This document shows, one piece after another, positions 3,259 to 10,872 of a stretch of DNA of 33,934 nucleotides. Under the pieces are notes generated by a model. The model worked only from the letters and a program-made list of their open reading frames with translations. It did not search any database and was not told the DNA's origin. This DNA comes from Candidatus Acetothermia bacterium (GTDB taxonomy: Bacteria; Bipolaricaulota; Bipolaricaulia; Bipolaricaulales; Bipolaricaulaceae). A program made the translations under genes and the position numbers. How positions within the stretch are numbered: the first letter of the stretch is position 1; each line of letters opens with the position of its first letter. The stretch is taken from contig PWTC01000064.1 in assembly GCA_003563005.1 (NCBI GenBank), positions 1-33,934 of the forward strand, given 5' to 3'.

Positions 3259-3286
3259 TTCTCCGGATCTCACGCTGTGCTATACT
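3259..3286 (+). promoter_or_regulatory. Sigma-70-like promoter of the outer-membrane protein gene
   Basis: The -10 is TATACT (3281-3286) and the -35 is TTCTCC (3259-3264) with a 16-base spacer. Transcription would start near 3293. This supports ATG 3320, which has the ribosome site GGGAGGTG at 3308-3315, over the in-frame ATG at 3299. Confidence 0.55.
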
Positions 3287-3319
3287 ACCTGACGGAAGGT
3301 GGTACCTGGGAGGTGTGCG

Positions 3320-4198
3320 ATGAAGACCTTGATGGCAGGGCTGGTGACCGTCGCGATCTCAGCGGCTGCGTTCTCCGTTGGAGGAGCGGCGTTCAGCCTG
3401 TGTACACCCTTCGGCGTGCGCTCGCTGGGCATGGGGGGCTCGCTCAGCTTCATCTCGGTGGATCCGCTGTTTCTGCTGCTACGGCCTGGCAGCGGACAGC
3501 CGACGGGCGGGGCTTGGCTCTCGGTGTCCAGTGGGGCGGGGACGATGGAGGCCGGCATCGGCCTGCATGAGGTCCGCAGCATCGCCGCCGGGCTCGATCT
3601 TGGCTCGTACGCGCTAGGGCTGACCTGGGTTCAGTTGTCCAAGGATCCGTTGACGCCTGGCTCGGGCATGCTGATGGGGACGGTAGGCGCTTCGGTGAGC
3701 GAGACGACGTCCCTGGGTCTGAACGTGAAGTACTACTTCGGTTCCGATGAAGAGCACGGTGATGTGGGTCTCCTATACGATGTAGCGGTGAAGGTTTCTG
3801 TGGATGCGGACATCGACGTGAGCATCGTGATCGAAGACATGGGAGGATCGGCCAACGGAGAAGGTAAGCGACCGGAGCCGATCTACAGGGCTGGGTTGAG
3901 CCTACAGATGTTGGACGACGCGCTTACGTTCTCAGCCAATCTCAACCTGGCAGGTTCCCAGTCACGGTCTCCTGAGCTACGAGCGGGCTTGGAGTTCAAC
4001 CCCTTTGCTGGGCTCTCCTTCCGCGCCGGCGTGGTGGCACCTGAGGTGCGCGAGCCAGCACTCGATTACTCGCTGGGGCTGGGGGTGACCATTCTTGACC
4101 TCGATCTGGAGGCCGCATACTTGTCCGTCCGGGAGTCGGAAGGTTCGCTGGTCCTCTCGGCGACCTACCGCCTGAGCAGCTTTCTGGACGGCCGCTAG
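3320..4198 (+). CDS. PorV/UPF0164-like outer-membrane beta-barrel protein
   Basis: The 292-aa product has a clear signal peptide (MKTLMAGLVTVAISAAAFSVGG) and then the hallmark GVRSLGMGGS segment near the mature N-terminus, as in PorV/PorQ and UPF0164 barrels. The rest alternates short hydrophobic and polar strands with many Gly and aromatic turns (SYALGLTWVQLS, LGLNVKYYFGS, SLVLSATYRL), as expected for a membrane beta barrel. Family members sit in the outer membrane, where some have secretion or transport roles; nothing here fixes a substrate. The start at 3320 is chosen for its ribosome site. The gene is monocistronic or weakly linked to the acetyltransferase 204 bases downstream. The intervening 4199-4402 shows no gene; it contains a short GGGC-TTCC-GCCC hairpin only. 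Confidence 0.75.
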   Translation: MKTLMAGLVTVAISAAAFSVGGAAFSLCTPFGVRSLGMGGSLSFISVDPLFLLLRPGSGQPTGGAWLSVSSGAGTMEAGIGLHEVRSIAAGLDLGSYALGLTWVQLSKDPLTPGSGMLMGTVGASVSETTSLGLNVKYYFGSDEEHGDVGLLYDVAVKVSVDADIDVSIVIEDMGGSANGEGKRPEPIYRAGLSLQMLDDALTFSANLNLAGSQSRSPELRAGLEFNPFAGLSFRAGVVAPEVREPALDYSLGLGVTILDLDLEAAYLSVRESEGSLVLSATYRLSSFLDGR

Positions 4199-4402
4199 GA
4201 GACGAAGAACGACCGAACCAGGCCAAGCGTAGGCCAACTCCTGCTTATGCCTCTACGAGGGACCGCTTGAGCCTGTAGCGACCCCGGCGCATTCCTCGGG
4301 CTTCCGCCCTCTTGTGGGGCAGGGCCGGGTAGACTTAAGAAAGCGCAGATCTGCGGGCGCGTGTGAGCGCACGTGCTCTCCGTACCAGAGGGGAGGGGCC
4401 TG

Positions 4403-4831
4403 TTGGACATCCGCGAACTCAGATCGGGGGATTATGATGAACTCTGCAGACTGTGGGAAGAAGCAGGCCTTTCTTACCGGCCTCACGGAAGGGATCGACG
4501 CGAGGCGATCACCCGGGAGATCGCCGAGAAGCGCTCCCTCTTCCTCGTGGCTGAGGCCGGGGCAACGCTGATCGGGGCGGTGCTCGGAACGCACGACGGA
4601 CGTAAGGGGTGGATCAACCGCCTGGCGGTGCTTCCAGCCCATCGCGGACGGGGGATCGGAAGGGCTTTGATCGCGGAGGCGAAAAGAAGATTCTTGGACA
4701 GAGGGATCGAGATCGTGGGCTGCCTGATCGAAGACTGGAACCATGAGTCCATGGCGTTTTTCCAACTCCTTGGCTATGTCCCCCACCAGGACATCGTGTA
4801 CTTCTCCAAGCGACGCTCGTCCGAGACGTAG
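4403..4831 (+). CDS. GNAT-family N-acetyltransferase
   Basis: A 142-aa single-domain acetyltransferase that would move an acetyl group from acetyl-CoA to an amine or protein N-terminus. The acetyl-CoA pyrophosphate loop is visible as HRGRGIGRALI, preceded by the usual strand WINRLAVLPA, and the C-terminal part has the typical N-x-x-A-x-x-F-Y-x-x-x-G-Y-like form (NHESMAFFQLLGY). The TTG at 4403 is preferred because an AGGGGAGGGG ribosome site lies just upstream. A GTG at 4373 is in frame but has no such site. Substrate is unknown; the fold most resembles RimI-like stand-alone members. Confidence 0.85.
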   Translation: MDIRELRSGDYDELCRLWEEAGLSYRPHGRDRREAITREIAEKRSLFLVAEAGATLIGAVLGTHDGRKGWINRLAVLPAHRGRGIGRALIAEAKRRFLDRGIEIVGCLIEDWNHESMAFFQLLGYVPHQDIVYFSKRRSSET

Positions 4832-4868
4832 ATCGGCACGGGGATCAGTCGGTCAAGCGTAGTGGGGG

Positions 4869-5432
4869 TCAGGGACGCAAGGCGACGGCTCGGTTCTGTG
4901 TGCCTCCCATGGCGCGGGTTTCCCTCTCAAGCGAGACGAGGCGCAGGCGTCCGAGCTCCGCCAGCCGCACCGCGGCCCCCTGCACGGAGACACCGAGTAG
5001 CTCGGCGAGTTCGCGACTCGTGAGTGCACCCCGTTCCTGGACGAGCTTCCAGGCGTCCAGGAGGTACGGCGGCAGTCGCCCCAGCACGCGGGGCACCATG
5101 TCTCTTCCGACCAGGGCAAGAAGGGCAAGCCTGCGTGCTGTTAGGCGCTCCCCCAGGTCCTCGGCGGTCTCGAAGCTCGGCGCGGAGACCCAGAGGTACC
5201 GTTGCGGGGGACCTTCTTCCAGAAGCCAGGCAGCGGCCTCCACGATGGCCTCGTCGGAGAACGAGCCGCTCAGCACCTCAAGTCCCGCAAGGTCGATGAC
5301 AAGCACACCGCCTATGGGCAGACCGGCGAACTCCCGCAGGAGTTCTGTGCGCACGCGCCCCCCTTCAAGGCGTGTGCCAAGCCGTGCCCCGTAGGACGAG
5401 AGCTGGAATCGTCGACCTCCTTCCGTTCCCAT
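4869..5432 (-). CDS. STAS-like (DUF4325-type) domain with C-terminal winged helix
   Basis: The 187-aa product has an N-terminal part (about residues 10-85) with a strand-helix pattern, GGVLVIDLAGLEVL followed by SGSFSDEAIVEAA. The SFxDE signature is that of STAS-like DUF4325 domains. The C-terminal part (about 120-187) looks like a winged helix-turn-helix: LTSRELAELLGVSVQGAAVRLAEL. The ATG at 5432 follows an AGGAGGTGAAG ribosome site that overlaps the upstream gene's stop region; the two genes are separated by two bases. DUF4325 proteins are commonly found beside GHKL-type ATPases, as here. I infer a partner-switching regulator, perhaps a DNA-binding one, with the ATPase upstream. The signal and target are unknown. 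Confidence 0.75.
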   Translation of the reverse strand: MGTEGGRRFQLSSYGARLGTRLEGGRVRTELLREFAGLPIGGVLVIDLAGLEVLSGSFSDEAIVEAAAWLLEEGPPQRYLWVSAPSFETAEDLGERLTARRLALLALVGRDMVPRVLGRLPPYLLDAWKLVQERGALTSRELAELLGVSVQGAAVRLAELGRLRLVSLERETRAMGGTQNRAVALRP

Positions 5433-5434
5433 CT

Positions 5435-6280
5435 TCACCTCCTGGAGACGTCCGTGAACAGACGCCGAGGCAGACGCACAGATACCTGCACTCCCGGATA
5501 CGGCACGACACGGCCCACCGTCCACTCGACTTCGCGTTGGTAGAACGCGCCCCTTCCAGTCCTCACGAAGAACTCGCCGTCGTCGCGGAGGACGAGCTGC
5601 CGGATGCGGCGGAGGGCCCCCCCGCGACCAGGGCGGTCGAAGCGAGAGGCCCCTTCCACGAGCACTGCTTCCAACGCACCAGCGTGATCCAGCTCCCGGT
5701 GACGCGTGTTGCGGCGCAGACTCCCCAGGAGCCCGATACCCTTGTCCGCGACCACCAGATGCACATGGTCTTCAAGCTCCTGCAGAGCGCACAGACCGAA
5801 AGGGTCGAACGATGCGCCGTTCGGATTCGCGTGCTGAGGGACGTTCTGCATGAGCTCAAGCATCGCCGAGCTGAGGAGGTGTGTCGAGCGCTCCCCGAAG
5901 GGGAAGCGTGTCCGGAGCAGTGCAGCAAGCTCGTCCGCAAGGCCTGTCACCGCTTCCTCGGATTCCGTCCTCACGACCGCCAGCAGAGGCACGTCCCCCC
6001 CCCGTGCCCAGAGCGGCGCGTCCGTCCAGGTACGCTCGTCCAGCAGGCGGAGCACACCGCTTCGCTGTAGGTCTCTTCGCGCTTTCGGATCCTCCGGTTG
6101 AAGAAGGCGCAGATATCCCCCGGCTTCGCCACAGCGTCTTCCCTCTAGGACAAGCATCAGAAGGCCGTAGGGGTCGAAGTACTGCAGATGAGAGAGGTCG
6201 ACAAGCGGGCGCGGGTGGCCGCTGCGCCAATCGGCCAGGGCTCGCTCAGCACCAAAGAGGTCCAACCTACGCAGCGGCAT
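5435..6280 (-). CDS. STAS domain fused to GHKL-type ATPase
   Basis: A 281-aa soluble protein with two parts. Residues about 25-85 fit a STAS domain (RPLVDLSHLQYFDPYGLLMLV). Residues about 130-260 fit a histidine-kinase-like ATP-binding domain: the N-box ELMQNVPQHAN, the G1 box ADKGIG, and a glycine-rich G2-like stretch GRGGAL. There is no dimerisation/phospho-His segment, so it is not a classical sensor kinase; the fold suits an anti-sigma or serine-kinase-type switch protein. It starts two bases after the DUF72 stop and ends two bases before the STAS-like winged-helix gene. Having STAS and ATPase in one chain with a second STAS-like protein next door suggests an intra-operon partner switch (inference). 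Confidence 0.8.
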   Translation of the reverse strand: MPLRRLDLFGAERALADWRSGHPRPLVDLSHLQYFDPYGLLMLVLEGRRCGEAGGYLRLLQPEDPKARRDLQRSGVLRLLDERTWTDAPLWARGGDVPLLAVVRTESEEAVTGLADELAALLRTRFPFGERSTHLLSSAMLELMQNVPQHANPNGASFDPFGLCALQELEDHVHLVVADKGIGLLGSLRRNTRHRELDHAGALEAVLVEGASRFDRPGRGGALRRIRQLVLRDDGEFFVRTGRGAFYQREVEWTVGRVVPYPGVQVSVRLPRRLFTDVSRR

Positions 6281-6282
6281 CT

Positions 6283-7125
6283 CTATCCGAAAAGGCGCCT
6301 CTCAAGGCGCTCCCAGGCCGGCCGCGCATCCGGAGGACGCAGCCCCAACCGCTGCTGGAGCTGCGCCGCGTTGATGGCCGACTTCCCTCGGTGGCAGTTG
6401 TTCATGAACAGGAATGTGGTTCGAGCAGTGTCCCGCGCCTTGCTGACCGCCGGAATCCAGGGCTCCAACTCGTCCGCCGTGTAGAGGTAGTCGTACCGAT
6501 CTCCGGTCGTGCCGGGGCGCCACCAGTTGGTTGCGTTGCGGCCGTGAAAACGGAAGTAGCCGATCCCGTTCGTCACGTGGTCCGTGACGTCGCCGGGAAG
6601 CCCAGGCAACGGCGGCAGGTCGACGTTCACGAAGCCCAGCTCCTGCTCCCGCAAGAAATCGAGGACATCGACGCGGTACCAAGATTCATGACGAAACTCG
6701 ACGTGCACGGGGACCTCGGCCGGGATTGCACGTCGCACGGCCTCAAGGTGCGCCAGGCCGGCCCGACCGTGCTTGAACGAGAATGGGAACTGGGCGAGCA
6801 CACTCCCCAACGTTCGGGAGAAGATGAGCGGCTCGAGGGCCGCAGCGAAAGGGGCTGCCGCCTCTGGGAGCTCACTGCGGTGGTGCGTGAACGCCTGCGG
6901 CGTCTTGACGGTGAACACGAACGTCTTGCGGTTCACCTTGCGCACGAGTGAAGCCAGCATATCCGGGCGTGGCATGCGGTAGTAGGTGCTGTTGATCTCC
7001 ACCGTGTCGAATGCATCGGCGTAGAAAGTCAGCCAGGCGCTGCGGGAGAGGCCCGGCGGGGAGATCACGCCGATCCAATCGGGGTAGCTATAACCCGAGG
7101 TACCGATGCGCAGGTTCCCGACCAT
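6283..7125 (-). CDS. DUF72 (YecE-like) protein
   Basis: A 280-aa DUF72 family protein, a TIM-barrel fold of unknown biochemical function. The family's N-terminal IGTSGYSYPDW segment is present, followed by FDTVEINSTYYRMP, an FVFTVKTPQAFTHHR strand, HVEFRHESWY, YFRFHGRNATNWW, and the C-terminal FLFMNNCHRGKSAINA motif. The ATG at 7125 puts the conserved IGTSGY segment at residue 6, as usual in the family; longer readings run into the mutL tail. It lies between mutL and the STAS-ATPase gene on the same strand. A TATAAT box only ten bases from the ATG suggests its own near-leaderless promoter. Confidence 0.9.
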   Translation of the reverse strand: MVGNLRIGTSGYSYPDWIGVISPPGLSRSAWLTFYADAFDTVEINSTYYRMPRPDMLASLVRKVNRKTFVFTVKTPQAFTHHRSELPEAAAPFAAALEPLIFSRTLGSVLAQFPFSFKHGRAGLAHLEAVRRAIPAEVPVHVEFRHESWYRVDVLDFLREQELGFVNVDLPPLPGLPGDVTDHVTNGIGYFRFHGRNATNWWRPGTTGDRYDYLYTADELEPWIPAVSKARDTARTTFLFMNNCHRGKSAINAAQLQQRLGLRPPDARPAWERLERRLFG

Positions 7126-7135
7126 CCCAAGTCGG

Positions 7136-7141
7136 ATTATA
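7136..7141 (-). promoter_or_regulatory. Consensus -10 box close to DUF72 start
   Basis: The minus strand reads TATAAT at 7141-7136, a perfect -10, with only ten bases to the ATG at 7125. A -35 is weak. If used, the transcript would start at or within a few bases of the ATG, giving a leaderless or nearly leaderless message for the DUF72-STAS operon. Confidence 0.45.
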
Positions 7142-7152
7142 GGCCAGGGGCG

Positions 7153-7171
7153 GCCCCTCGAAGCGAGGGGC
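7153..7171 (-). terminator. GC-rich hairpin after mutL
   Basis: A perfect 8-bp stem (GCCCCTCG / CGAGGGGC) with a 3-base loop lies 14 bases after the mutL stop. It has no T-run, so it may slow or attenuate rather than fully terminate. It sits directly before the DUF72 -10 box, consistent with a transcription-unit boundary. Confidence 0.4.
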
Positions 7172-7184
7172 TTCTCGTCCCATA

Positions 7185-8846
7185 TCAGCGACCCAGCTTG
7201 CGCTCGAGCTCTCCCCAGCTCAAGGGCACGACCACGGGACGTCCATGAGGACAGCGGCCTGGCTCCCGGCACGCCTTCCACTCGTCGATCAGCGCCAGCA
7301 ACTCCCGGTCCGCAAGCCTCTCTCCGGCCTTCAGCGCTGCCGCACAGGCGACGCGCCTCCAAAGCTCTTCGTTGGGCGGCTCCCCGTCAAGGAGCACGTC
7401 CGCCAACGCCAGCACTGGCGCCTCGTAGCCAAGCTTCGCTTGGCGGTCAGAGAGGGGCGCGGGCCACCCGGAGAGACGGAACGACCCCCGGCCGAAGGGC
7501 TCGAGGACAATCCCAAGCTCAGCCAGGCGCGGCAAGGCGCGCTCGAGCGCTGCCGCGCGGTCAAAGGGCACGACCACCTCGACGGGGATGAGCATGGTCT
7601 GCGCGGGCACCTGGCTTCCCGAGTAGCGCTCGAACAGGACACGCTCATGAGCCGCGTGGGGGTCGAGGACCTCCAGACCGTCCTCCATCTCCAGCACGGC
7701 GTAGCCTCGGGAGGTTTGCCCGAGGAGCCGCCACGGGCGATCCCCGGGGTCAAGGTGTGGAAGGCGGTACATGGGTCCAGGTTCGGTGGGGGACGGGGAG
7801 GCAACACGCTGGGGCCAGTTGGAGGGGCCGGGCAACCCCCCTGCGTGGGGCGCCGGCGCCGTCAGACCCCCGAGGGCGCGGACCGCAGCACCGTGGACGA
7901 GGTCGCCCACTGCACCCTGACCTCGGAAGCGGACCTCCTCCTTGCGAGGGTGCACGTTCACGTCGACTGCTGCGGGGTCCAGTTCCAGGTAGAGCAGACA
8001 CAGCGGGTGCCGTCCCCGTGGAAGGTACCGTTCGTAGGCGGCGTAGAGGTGCCGCGTGAGCGGGCCCAGTCGCACCGGTCTTCCTTTCAAAAACACGATC
8101 TGGTCCCCTCGGGTGGGACGTGCCGCCTCAGGGGTGCCGAAGAGGCCCCAGAGGCGCGCTTCGTCCGATGCAAGCTCGACCTCGACGAGAGCATCGGCAA
8201 GCGCACGCCCGTAGATCTGTGCCGCGCGAGCCCGACGGTCGACCACAGGAGGTGCCTCGAGCACCCCCCTGCCTTCGGAGCGCACGAAGAAGCCCACCTG
8301 CGGGTGGCCCAAGGCCAAGCGGCGGAGGACCGCGAGGGTATGGCGTGCCTCGGCCGTCGGACTCTGCAAGAAGGCCCGGCGCGCAGGTACGTTGAAGAAC
8401 AACTCCTCCATCGCCACCGAGGTGCCTACCGCGTGGGCGGCGGGGCGCTCTTGCGTCAGCCGCCCCCCTTCGAGCCGCAGCATGTAGCCCTCCGCACGAC
8501 CGGACGGGCGAGAGGTGAGCACGACACGCGCCACAGCGCAGAGCGCAGCGAGGGCTTCTCCCCGGAAGCCCAGCGTGCGGACGCGCTGAAGATCTTCCTC
8601 CTCGCGTAGCTTGCTCGTCGTGTGCCGCTCGACCGCGAGACGCATTTCCTCGGGGTCCATGCCGCAGCCATCGTCGCGCACGCTCAGTGCAGCAATCCCT
8701 CCTCCACGCAGTTCGACCTCAACGCGCATCGCCCCGGCGTCGAGCGCGTTCTCCACTAGCTCTTTGGCCGCCGACGCGGGGCGCTCGACCACCTCGCCCG
8801 CAGCGATCTGACGGATGACCTCTTCCTCAAGCCGATGGATACGCAT
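7185..8846 (-). CDS. mutL: DNA mismatch repair protein MutL
   Basis: MutL couples MutS mismatch recognition to strand nicking and repair. The 553-aa product has the GHKL ATPase N-terminus: IAAGEVVERPASAAKELVENALDAGA, DDGCGM and TLGFRGEAL. The C-terminal domain keeps the metal-dependent endonuclease signature DPHAAHERVLFE (fitting D-x-H-A-x2-E-x4-E), the ACAAALKAGE motif and CPHGRP. It is therefore the nicking type found in bacteria without MutH. The ATG at 8846 places the conserved IxQIAAGEV at the right distance; a longer reading to 8930 adds a low-complexity basic tail. No ribosome site is evident. MutS is not in the window. Confidence 0.97.
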   Translation of the reverse strand: MRIHRLEEEVIRQIAAGEVVERPASAAKELVENALDAGAMRVEVELRGGGIAALSVRDDGCGMDPEEMRLAVERHTTSKLREEEDLQRVRTLGFRGEALAALCAVARVVLTSRPSGRAEGYMLRLEGGRLTQERPAAHAVGTSVAMEELFFNVPARRAFLQSPTAEARHTLAVLRRLALGHPQVGFFVRSEGRGVLEAPPVVDRRARAAQIYGRALADALVEVELASDEARLWGLFGTPEAARPTRGDQIVFLKGRPVRLGPLTRHLYAAYERYLPRGRHPLCLLYLELDPAAVDVNVHPRKEEVRFRGQGAVGDLVHGAAVRALGGLTAPAPHAGGLPGPSNWPQRVASPSPTEPGPMYRLPHLDPGDRPWRLLGQTSRGYAVLEMEDGLEVLDPHAAHERVLFERYSGSQVPAQTMLIPVEVVVPFDRAAALERALPRLAELGIVLEPFGRGSFRLSGWPAPLSDRQAKLGYEAPVLALADVLLDGEPPNEELWRRVACAAALKAGERLADRELLALIDEWKACREPGRCPHGRPVVVPLSWGELERKLGR

Positions 8847-8883
8847 CGGGAGAAGGCTACGCCGCAACCGCCCCCTGCGCCAC

Positions 8884-8912
8884 TTGCCCTTCCGTCCCGC
8901 GTGCGCTAGGCT
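8884..8912 (+). promoter_or_regulatory. Candidate promoter of the MerR-like/HD operon
   Basis: TTGCCC (8884-8889) and TAGGCT (8907-8912) with a 17-base spacer lie upstream of the AGGAGG ribosome site and the GTG at 8942. The -10 matches poorly, so this is tentative. Confidence 0.35.
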
Positions 8913-8941
8913 GGCGCAAAACGGGGCCAAAGGAGGAGAGG

Positions 8942-9355
8942 GTGTACACCATCGCGCAGATCGTCGAGCTGCTCGGCCTGAGCAGCGAGAACCAAGCGCG
9001 CAATCGCATCGAGGCCGTCCGTGACCTGCTCGCCGGAACGCTGCGGCGAGGTCGTAACAATCAGCTTCTGGTGACGGAGAGCGGGCTGGATCTCCTGCGC
9101 GCCCTCCACGCGTTGTGCGAATCTGGGCATACCTTGAAGGAAGCCGGAGACCTCTTGCGCTACCGTGCTGACCAGAACGATGTTACCCTTCTCCCCGACA
9201 AGGACAAAACCGGATCAAACGAGACCATAGACCGAGGCTGGGAGGCCTTGATCGACCATCTCAGCCGGCAGATCCAGGCGCTCGAGGCGCGGGTAACGGC
9301 GCTTGAGCGGCGGACAGCGGAACGGTCCGGCGCGCTGCCGTGGTGGCAGCGATGA
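8942..9355 (+). CDS. MerR-like helix-turn-helix protein with coiled coil
   Basis: A 137-aa protein starting with GTG after the ribosome site AAAGGAGGAGAG. Residues 1-70 have a MerR-type DNA-binding pattern: YTIAQIVELLGLS, then a wing-like stretch, then a second helix-turn-helix-like part ending HTLKEAGDLLRY. Residues about 100-130 form a heptad-rich helix (LSRQIQALEARVTALERR) likely to dimerise the protein. No ligand-binding domain or Cys cluster is present, so any effector is unknown. It overlaps the HD-domain gene by ATGA, and the two are presumably co-expressed. Confidence 0.7.
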   Translation: MYTIAQIVELLGLSSENQARNRIEAVRDLLAGTLRRGRNNQLLVTESGLDLLRALHALCESGHTLKEAGDLLRYRADQNDVTLLPDKDKTGSNETIDRGWEALIDHLSRQIQALEARVTALERRTAERSGALPWWQR

Positions 9356-10119
9356 ACGCACGCGGAGGCAACAACGTGACCAAGCTCAAACAGGTGAAGC
9401 AACGGGTGGACGACTCGCCGCGCCTCAAGGCGCTGTGGGCGGCCTCCAATGTGACCGCCATCAACCGGCTCAGGATCAACGACCATGGTCCTGTCCACGT
9501 GCGCATCGTCATGCGCCTCGCCCTCAGACTCTTGCGCCTCCTGCGGGAGGCGGACGTGCAACCCGGCATCGTCGACCACGGGGGCACCTACGAGGACGCT
9601 GAGGTGGTCGTCTACCTGGCCGCAGCGCTCCACGACGTGGGGCACGCCGTCCACCGAGCGGACCACGAACTCCTGAGCGTGCTTCTGGCCCCCACGCTCC
9701 TCGAGGAGCTCCTGGAGGGTCTCTACGAAGAACCGATGCGGACCATTCTCATCGCCGAGGTACTCCACGCCGTGTTCGCGCACCGCAAGGACGCCGAGCC
9801 GTTGACCATCGAGGCCGGGATCATCAAGGTCGCCGACGCGCTGGATATGGAGAAGGGCCGAGCGCGGATCCCCTTCCGGGTGGGCGAGCCGACCATCCAC
9901 TCCGTCTCGGCGCTGGCCATCGAGAAGGTCGAGCTCACCAAGGGCAAGGAGAAGCCGGTGCACATCCATGTGCGCATGTCGAACTCGGCCGGCATCTTCC
10001 AGCTCGACTCGCTGTTCAAGGAGAAACTCAGCCGCTCGGGCCTCGGGCGGTACATCGACGTCTCCGCGGAGATCCAAGGCGAGGAGATGAAGATCATCGA
10101 GCGCTATGCGATCGGGTGA
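9352..10119 (+). CDS. HD-domain metal-dependent phosphohydrolase
   Basis: A 255-aa protein with an HD-superfamily metal site: NDHGPVH (His45, His49), AALHDVGHAVH (the His-Asp pair near residue 95 and following His), and a downstream ADALDMEKGR segment with another candidate ligand Asp. These enzymes hydrolyse phosphoesters such as nucleotides or cyclic dinucleotides; which one is not evident. The C-terminal third is a strand-rich domain (KPVHIHVRMSNSAGIFQLD). The ATG at 9352 is used because it overlaps the upstream stop (ATGA); a GTG at 9340 is an alternative. The arrangement resembles archaeal-type HD proteins of this size. Confidence 0.85.
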   Translation: MNARGGNNVTKLKQVKQRVDDSPRLKALWAASNVTAINRLRINDHGPVHVRIVMRLALRLLRLLREADVQPGIVDHGGTYEDAEVVVYLAAALHDVGHAVHRADHELLSVLLAPTLLEELLEGLYEEPMRTILIAEVLHAVFAHRKDAEPLTIEAGIIKVADALDMEKGRARIPFRVGEPTIHSVSALAIEKVELTKGKEKPVHIHVRMSNSAGIFQLDSLFKEKLSRSGLGRYIDVSAEIQGEEMKIIERYAIG

Positions 10120-10128
10120 ACGGGAGAT

Positions 10129-10214
10129 TTAACATAAGGGGCCTTTTGTCAAGCGGCCCGGTCTGGAAATGCCCTTTGGGACACGGTTTTCCCAGTGGCC
10201 CGTTCGTATGTTAA
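10129..10214. repeat. Nested imperfect inverted repeat before the recombinase
   Basis: Complementary arms occur in mirrored order: TTAACATA (10129-10136) with TATGTTAA (10207-10214), GGGCC (10138-10142) with GGCCC (10197-10201), CTGGAAA with TTTCCCAG, and a central CCC-TTT-GGG. A near-identical direct repeat also frames the area: CTTTTGTCAAGC (10143-10154) and CTTTTGTAAAGC (10226-10237). The outer right arm overlaps the -10 of the recombinase promoter. It could be a terminator for the HD gene, an operator, or a recombinase site. The equivalent region before copy 2 lacks it. Confidence 0.55.
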
Positions 10215-10217
10215 GAT
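10189..10217 (+). promoter_or_regulatory. Promoter of operon copy 1
   Basis: TTCCCA (10189-10194), a 17-base spacer and TAAGAT (10212-10217) precede the recombinase by 37 bases. The GTTAAGAT box and the leader after it, including a GGGAGGTG-like ribosome site, are matched before operon copy 2. Confidence 0.55.
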
Positions 10218-10254
10218 ACATGTGTCTTTTGTAAAGCTGCAAGGGGAGGTGGGC

Positions 10255-10872
10255 ATGGCGCTTGAGCTGACACAGGAGGACTTCATGACCCCCGAGCAAG
10301 TGCGACGGCTGAAGGCGCACGCACGCCGCACCGCCGAGGAGGCACGCAGGACAGGCCGCACTGGCCCGGAGCGGGACTGGGCGATCCTCCATGTCGCGCT
10401 CGATGCTGGACTCCGGGTCTCGGAGATCACCGCCCTCCGGGTGGGGGATCTCCTCCTCGACGATGGGCACGCAGCGTTGATCGTCCGCTCGGGGAAGGGG
10501 GGCAAGGAACGGGGGGTGGACATCGGCCGGGCGCTGCGGGAACACCTGACGTCCTATCTGCAATGGAAACGGGAGATCGGCGAGTCCACCGAGCCCGACG
10601 CGATCCTGTTCCCATCCCCCCGCGGAGGAAGGCTCACGAGACAGGCGGTGTATCTCATGTTCAAGCGTCTCGCTCGCGAAGTCGCGCTTCCGGAGCGGTT
10701 CAGCATCCACTCGTGCCGGCACACATATGCATCGATGCTCTACCGTGCGTCGAAGTTCAACCTGCGTCTGGTGCAGCGGCAATTGGGCCACGCCTCCGTG
10801 CGCACGACGCAGGTATACGCCGACGTCCTCTCGCAAGATGCCTGGGAAGCCGTCAATGGGCTGCCGCAATGA
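10255..10872 (+). CDS. Small tyrosine recombinase, catalytic domain only
   Basis: A 205-aa recombinase with the full catalytic set: Arg54 (GLRVSE), Lys81 (SGKGGKER), His152 and Arg155 (HSCRH), His179 (QLGHAS) and nucleophile Tyr188 (TTQVYAD). It should therefore be active in strand exchange. It lacks the usual N-terminal SAM-like core-binding domain; only about 40 residues precede the catalytic fold, so it is close in size to FimB/FimE-type invertases. The ATG at 10255 follows a GGGGAGGTG ribosome site. Its stop overlaps gene A as ATGA, so it is translationally coupled to the MoxR/VWA operon, which is unusual. No phage genes lie nearby. The counterpart in copy 2 is a 43-codon scar. Confidence 0.93.
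   Translation: MALELTQEDFMTPEQVRRLKAHARRTAEEARRTGRTGPERDWAILHVALDAGLRVSEITALRVGDLLLDDGHAALIVRSGKGGKERGVDIGRALREHLTSYLQWKREIGESTEPDAILFPSPRGGRLTRQAVYLMFKRLAREVALPERFSIHSCRHTYASMLYRASKFNLRLVQRQLGHASVRTTQVYADVLSQDAWEAVNGLPQ

Follow-up and report, generated by a model that had tools for sequence, protein, structure and literature searches.

A CapK/CapS-like gene pair as a candidate phospho-switch for the dinB operon in Bipolaricaulota

What would be controlled by a locus that joins a kinase-like protein to a DNA-binding protein, each with a STAS-type part? The question was raised by two adjacent genes on a contig from a Candidatus Acetothermia bacterium (PWTC01000064.1, assembly GCA_003563005.1), of which a stretch of 33,934 nucleotides, called here the window (G000:C152), was analyzed. 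The genome bin, G000, holds 1.4 Mb with 88% completeness and 4.16% contamination. Throughout, A denotes the gene at 5435–6280 and B the gene at 4869–5432, both on the minus strand, and c10 denotes a small gene preceding dinB; genomes, loci, contigs, genera and families carry the prefixes G, L, C, g and f. A preliminary description had taken the pair for a compact partner switch whose output is a DNA-binding protein, and had hinted at a setting of DNA damage or stress. The present analysis favors this reading, and homology to the CapK/CapS regulators suggests a mechanism for it.

The gene pair and its relation to CapK/CapS

A is predicted to encode a CapK-like protein of 281 amino acids, in which a STAS domain precedes a GHKL ATPase/kinase domain with no N-terminal helix-turn-helix (HTH); the assignment draws on the open reading frame, alignment, a structural model, Foldseek and hhalign. 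B would encode a putative CapS-like repressor of 187 amino acids with a STAS-like part and a winged helix, as judged from the reading frame, alignment, profiles and model. A longer frame (4869–5525) begins upstream in frame, and the 187 amino acids are counted from the ATG of B. Only two bases separate the stop codon of A from this ATG, and the last stretch of A contains an AGGAGG, a ribosome-binding site for B. On the window contig the pair closes a same-strand run, mutL–DUF72–A–B. The mutL gene (7185–8846, minus strand) was named from its sequence, and the DUF72 gene (6283–7125, minus strand), whose start was placed by a homologue with MVGNLRIG, lies two bases upstream of A; the Pfam match to DUF72 was made on the copy on contig C46. 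The neighbors of B are the uncharacterized gene c25, a GNAT gene and one for an ABC-transporter binding protein, and dinB is not adjacent. Other genera have homologues of A and B with identities as low as about 30%, which excludes chance reading frames. Neighboring genes were called with a simple codon-usage script, which missed the window DUF72 gene and several copies of A and B, and gene presence was then re-checked by tblastn.

Searches of A and B against Pfam, NCBIfam and PADLOC returned sub-threshold matches or none. Below the Pfam cut-offs, A matched STAS_2 (E 0.02) and HATPase_c_2 (E 0.0034), and B matched HTH_24 (E 0.0024) and DUF4325 (PF14213, E 0.2), the last failing its threshold with 11.8 bits against a cut-off of 23. 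No LexA or S24 peptidase domain was found in either protein in library searches with E up to 1, and a scan of viral contigs with B found no relative. The AlphaFold2 models have a mean pLDDT of 85.1 (A) and 93.5 (B). In Foldseek searches the GHKL part of A matched CheA P4 and SpoIIAB with E-values from 6e-6 to 6e-4, and its N-terminal part matched weakly the STAS proteins TM1081, RsbV and SpoIIAA (E 0.012–0.029). The wing domain of B resembles MarR/ArsR folds (VIA-align Z about 9–10). The Foldseek and VIA matches of B were confined to this domain, and its STAS part is suggested by the CapS profile match described below and by the secondary structure of the predicted model. Collectively, reading frames, folds and CapS profile agree with the domain order first proposed for two genes lying two bases apart: the ATPase fold of A and, more weakly, its STAS fold were recovered by AlphaFold2 and Foldseek, and B was covered by the CapS profile. 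The motif SFSDE noted earlier in B is present in the window protein, whereas most homologues read SFADE.

The N, G1 and G2 boxes of the GHKL domain are invariant in all 20 aligned A proteins, including N146, which corresponds to N218 of CapK, together with E142, D179, G181, G183, G218 and G220. Ser57 of B likewise does not vary among all 22 homologues aligned, and it aligns with the phosphorylated Ser54 of CapS. Where SpoIIAA-type proteins have their serine pair, the STAS domain of A has P/A/V and Y/F/H.

In the main text of Chambers et al. (EMBO J 2026, PMC13373217, published June 2026), CapK and CapS are described as regulators of phage defense. CapK is a kinase activated by single-stranded DNA (ssDNA) that phosphorylates the repressor CapS at Ser54, upon which the CapS dimer dissociates and the promoter is freed. 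CapS is autoregulated and its dimers bind side by side; in the "wide" site of Enterobacter (E.) roggenkampii CapS, the half-sites stand ten bases apart around the -10 element. According to the same text, 348 of 443 capKS loci stand ahead of operons with a known or predicted immune function, with other targets also named, and the N-terminal HTH of CapK is given no role. That main text contains no mention of dinB, LexA, SOS or DUF4325.

A profile built from 22 B proteins found three solved CapS entries (two sequences) as its best matches, with E-values of 2e-12 and 1.6e-10 and alignments spanning both the STAS and the winged-helix parts. Profile–profile comparison with hhalign, for which four CapK and five CapS relatives were taken from plasmid records, gave a Prob of 98.8 (E 1e-16) for B and CapS and of 97.2 (E 3e-11) for A and CapK, the latter over residues 48–241 of A only.

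Compared to CapK/CapS, the pair has the same arrangement of a STAS-GHKL kinase gene followed by a STAS-winged-helix gene, with homology across most of both proteins. The kinase-then-repressor order was found in all 26 loci where tblastn detected B, with a spacing of -29 to 48 bp in 25 of them and of 370 bp in L050. The phospho-serine position is also kept (Ser57 for Ser54), and a palindrome lies around the -10 element of the promoter downstream of the repressor gene in both systems. There are several differences, however. A begins at the STAS domain, while CapK carries the N-terminal HTH. Lys237 and Lys239 in the predicted ssDNA groove of CapK are replaced in A by Glu and a gap in the hhalign alignment; the ssDNA-stacking W68 falls outside the aligned range and, by eye, corresponds to position 3 of A, which is mostly non-aromatic among homologues. 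The half-site sequences differ and no operator was seen between A and B. Unlike in CapS autoregulation, no palindrome site with up to three mismatches was found upstream of A in the G000 genome. Finally, the downstream genes are c10 and dinB instead of an immune operon, although an immune target is not required in the main text of PMC13373217.

Other switches are related in part. VapKSC, as presented in that main text, also combines a STAS-GHKL kinase with a STAS protein bearing a conserved Ser/Thr, whereas B has a full winged helix and no VapC was identified among the recurrent neighbors of the pair. The partner switches SpoIIAB/SpoIIAA and RsbW/RsbV share the GHKL kinase and STAS folds, but the output here is predicted to be a DNA-binding protein, and no sigma factor was found among the identified recurrent neighbors of the pair loci.

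Linkage to dinB and the distribution of LexA

Among 100 genomes of the phylum, A was matched in 30. Listing the neighbors of the pair in these genomes, a check proposed in the preliminary description, gave c10 and dinB as the recurrent downstream genes. Of these 30 Bipolaricaulota genomes, 23 have the pair upstream of dinB, on the same strand and with c10 in between, one of them by inference (G072). A Y-family polymerase gene (PF00817) was found downstream on the same strand and contig in 22 of the 30; its first domain starts 0.9–1.0 kb after A in 20 genomes, and the distance is 1.9 kb for G031 and 2.2 kb for G000, the latter being counted through a second A–B copy on contig C46. In G072, B is interrupted by an N-gap, and a stretch of B that overlaps stands directly before dinB elsewhere on the scaffold. 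The N-gaps place the two parts of B (L057 and L108), whose sequences overlap, about 0.95 Mb apart, an arrangement that is probably a scaffold misjoin in the public assembly. G091 and G092 keep c10 and have dinB elsewhere in the genome. Among the other genomes outside the 23, the contig of G095 ends in c10, G003 and G036 meet a contig edge, and A is broken in G022; in this last genome (L069, C123, 3295–4050) three in-frame stops interrupt A and B was not found beside it. G057, of family f5, has a diverged pair without dinB. Its GHKL and STAS-like genes (L058, C36, 6430–7882) lie near ispD and a PKD-domain gene, with 27% identity to A.

Of the 26 loci with a B detected by tblastn, 25 have the c10 gene after it on the same strand; for the remaining locus, L057, c10 lies on the other scaffold piece, L108. 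It encodes about 85–100 amino acids (for example L041 363–602, L096 1247–1489 and L098 2596–2853) and has no Pfam match; a first guess that it was DUF6504 was dropped, as Pfam gives no such match. It precedes dinB in pair-type and LexA-type operons alike, and its product is possibly a DinB partner.

By record label, 19 of 25 named loci belong to Bipolaricaulota, Bipolaricaulis or Acetothermia. The other labels are Anaerolineales (L076), Atribacteria (L088) and simply bacterium (L078, L079, L093 and L094). L076 carries A–B–c10–dinB within a contig of 4.3 kb; because a misbinned contig cannot be distinguished from a transfer, it was excluded from the host range.

The neighbors of the pair loci include mutL, UvrD-type helicase and exonuclease-III-like genes. 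The preliminary description linked the pair to mutL and DUF72, which precede it in the window. Neither is the informative neighbor: only genera g1, g3 and g11 have mutL next to the pair, whereas the linkage to dinB extends to 23 of 30 genomes. Genes of the DUF72 family come up repeatedly close to the pair and to dinB, in the window (6283–7125) and in L041, L046, L047, L049, L052, L059, L061, L062, L066, L068 and L070, which suggests a repair-related role for DUF72.

The window genome carries its own dinB of the pair-linked type on two contigs: a partial copy on C46, beside the second A–B copy (83–86% identity), and a copy on C62, which is followed by mutS and, further on, recA. The C46 stretch (L041) is a second mutL–DUF72–A–B run with 81% DNA identity to 3271–10430 of the window. 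Between C46 and C62 (L096) the dinB genes are 96% identical and the adjoining c25 genes 85%, and the bin holds three versions of c25. These duplicate stretches may reflect a mixture of related strains in the bin, recombination or duplication.

LexA (TIGR00498) exceeded the cut-off in 17 of the 100 genomes but never in a genome with A; among those 30, G082 gave a match of 19 bits, below the cut-off. A search for S24 gave the same picture, with G010, G025, G075 and G077 additionally over the cut-off, the matches in G075 and G077 barely so. RecA was over the cut-off in 87 of the 100. In seven genomes (G041–G046 and G058) lexA lies upstream of c10–dinB, with recA in between in G058. A maximum-likelihood tree of 58 dinB rows, drawn from the fetched loci rather than from all dinB matches and rooted at the midpoint, places pair-linked and LexA-linked dinB together (35 rows), split from the other paralogue (23 rows) by a branch with 100/100 support. 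Thus, different regulators stand before one operon in different families, and the pair would take the place that LexA holds elsewhere. LexA acts through RecA-stimulated self-cleavage. A and B showed no relation to LexA or S24 peptidases in the library searches, and they would act by a kinase switch instead; in both arrangements the gene of a repressor, putative in the case of B, lies upstream of c10–dinB.

Families f1 and f9 lack LexA even where the pair is absent, so that the mutual exclusion of pair and LexA applies to whole families and reflects a small number of independent events. G074 has a dinB of the pair-linked clade without A, and c10 and the f9-type site described below are also absent. 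G078, a genome of family f9, carries f1-type versions of A, B, dinB and operator, as though these had been transferred as one unit. A small contig in an f1 genome (L102, G025:C10) carries a LexA-like gene of 99.5 bits, below the cut-off, by a diverged dinB-like piece; this contig may be contamination.

A candidate operator at the dinB promoter

A sequence scan placed a palindrome over the promoter of c10–dinB. Its half-site is CTCGATAAA in G000, G003, G030, G031 and G078, CTCGGTCAAG in G005, G007 and G014, CTCGTCCAAG in G017, and GTTCA in G016 and many f9 genomes; genus g38 has another form. The GTTCA half-sites are spaced by 10 bases in f9 and 11 in G016, compared with ten in the "wide" CapS site of the PMC13373217 main text. 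A second, weaker palindrome, with two or three mismatches, precedes the first by 28 bp in G005, G007, G014 and G078, and such tandem sites would fit side-by-side binding of dimers as in CapS.

Promoters of the pair type (29) were compared with those of the LexA type (7), omitting one duplicate row (L132) and two unlinked c10-like rows (L109 and L110). A TTGAC -35 element placed 16–17 bases before the best -10 was present in 27 of 29 pair-type and 0 of 7 LexA-type promoters, and a palindrome score of at least 7 was reached by 20 of 29 and 1 of 7, respectively.

The rarity of the site elsewhere was assessed by scans allowing up to three mismatches; as the patterns were derived from the dinB sites themselves, only the scarcity of off-target sites is informative. 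In G000 the scan found two sites, both at c10–dinB (control, 0). The f9-type pattern was found at dinB in 13 of 26 genomes, with two sites elsewhere at three mismatches (control, 1), and in none of the eight genomes of that set without A. With the CTCGATAAA type, four sites with at most one mismatch were found in 26 genomes, all at dinB (G003, G030, G031 and G078), and six off-target sites with two or three mismatches (control, 6). The CTCGGTCAAG type gave three perfect sites in 14 genomes, all at dinB (G005, G007 and G014), and four off-target sites with three mismatches (control, 1). At the unlinked dinB of G091 and G092 the f9-type site was not found; a g38-type half, ATGTGCGAA, seen there by eye was too weak to count.

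When the first 70 nucleotides after B were compared with shuffled sequence, 14 of 22 loci reached p ≤ 0.05, one of them (L043) through a different palindrome. The misses were L041, L042, L049, L052, L061, L062, L066 and L067, with the site lying further on in L041 and L042. In the promoter comparison, the best palindrome of L045, L061 and L065 pairs half-sites otherwise than in the described site. The site stands 0.9–1.3 kb from B on C46 and in G031, beside c10, and it is also beside c10 on C62 and on contig C360 of G003, where no B was found on the contig. These four cases indicate that the site belongs to dinB.

No palindrome was found after the window B, where TACGCTTGACCGAC is present. The segment ACTACGCTTGACCGAC (4836–4868, minus strand) after the stop of B is like half of a g4-type operator without a palindrome and could possibly be an operator relic. 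The window B shares the recognition-helix sequence SVQGAAVRL with the C46 copy, and it is thus expected, judging by this helix, to read the CTCGATAAA site.

The proposed circuit and its alternatives

The domains, the homology to CapK/CapS, the kept catalytic motifs and serine, the linkage to dinB, the palindrome found nearly only at dinB and the lack of overlap with LexA were computed directly. From these, the pair is probably a phospho-switch of the CapK/CapS type that controls the c10–dinB translesion-polymerase operon and responds to stress, most likely DNA damage. A dimer of B would bind the palindrome at the c10–dinB promoter and repress it, and in some genomes the second palindrome, 28 bp upstream, would cover the -35 region. 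In response to such a signal, A would spend ATP to phosphorylate Ser57 of B, the dimers would separate and leave the operator, and dinB would be expressed. The family resemblance and the target assignment are well supported by sequence comparison. That B binds DNA and is phosphorylated is proposed from homology; repression by a dimer and a role of damage as the trigger are likewise proposals, and the trigger is the weakest step: since A has no CapK HTH and Lys237/Lys239 are not kept, the damage signal does not carry over by homology.

These same losses would suit a switch that controls dinB while A senses a cue other than damage, such as nucleotide state, replication arrest or general stress, and partner-switch kinases are known to respond to many signals. 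We consider this rather unlikely, as a translesion polymerase is an enzyme of damage tolerance and mutL, UvrD-type helicase and exonuclease-III-like genes are among the neighbors; CapK itself senses ssDNA according to the main text of PMC13373217. That the locus is an ordinary immune-operon CapK/CapS with an incidental link to dinB is highly improbable. Most capKS loci counted in that text do precede immune operons (348 of 443), but the recurrent downstream genes here are c10 and dinB, and A and B have no match among the PADLOC models in a scan that covered these two proteins.

The palindrome could also be read as a terminator or RNA element, the pair and dinB being merely co-transcribed or neighbors in a repair region. 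In many loci it lies within 70 nucleotides of the stop of B, a possible place for a terminator. This is nevertheless quite improbable: in four places (C46, C62, G003:C360 and G031) the site adjoins c10 and is away from B, by the TTGAC criterion it overlaps a -35/-10 pair at 27 of 29 pair-type loci and at none of the seven LexA-type loci, and no T run follows it.

We favor a wider proposal only slightly over its negation: in families without LexA, a switch of the CapK/CapS kind would have replaced LexA at the dinB operon, so that inducible mutagenesis would be set by phosphorylation rather than through cleavage of a repressor driven by RecA, with about one operator locus per genome. To our knowledge, the control of error-prone polymerases in bacteria without LexA has been solved in few cases; UmuDAb and WYL-domain regulators are examples. 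At the level of literature listings, no report was found of dinB control by such a pair in Bipolaricaulota or of an SOS response there. Relative to the CapKS set in the main text of Chambers et al., what would be new is the target, dinB instead of phage-defense genes.

The circuit would be small and testable for an uncultured phylum, with two proteins, one serine, one operator and one target operon. It would also extend a family of phage-defense regulators into core DNA-damage tolerance and, if true, would mean that the immune CapK/CapS systems and a housekeeping switch for repair have a common origin, with one of the two recruited from the other.
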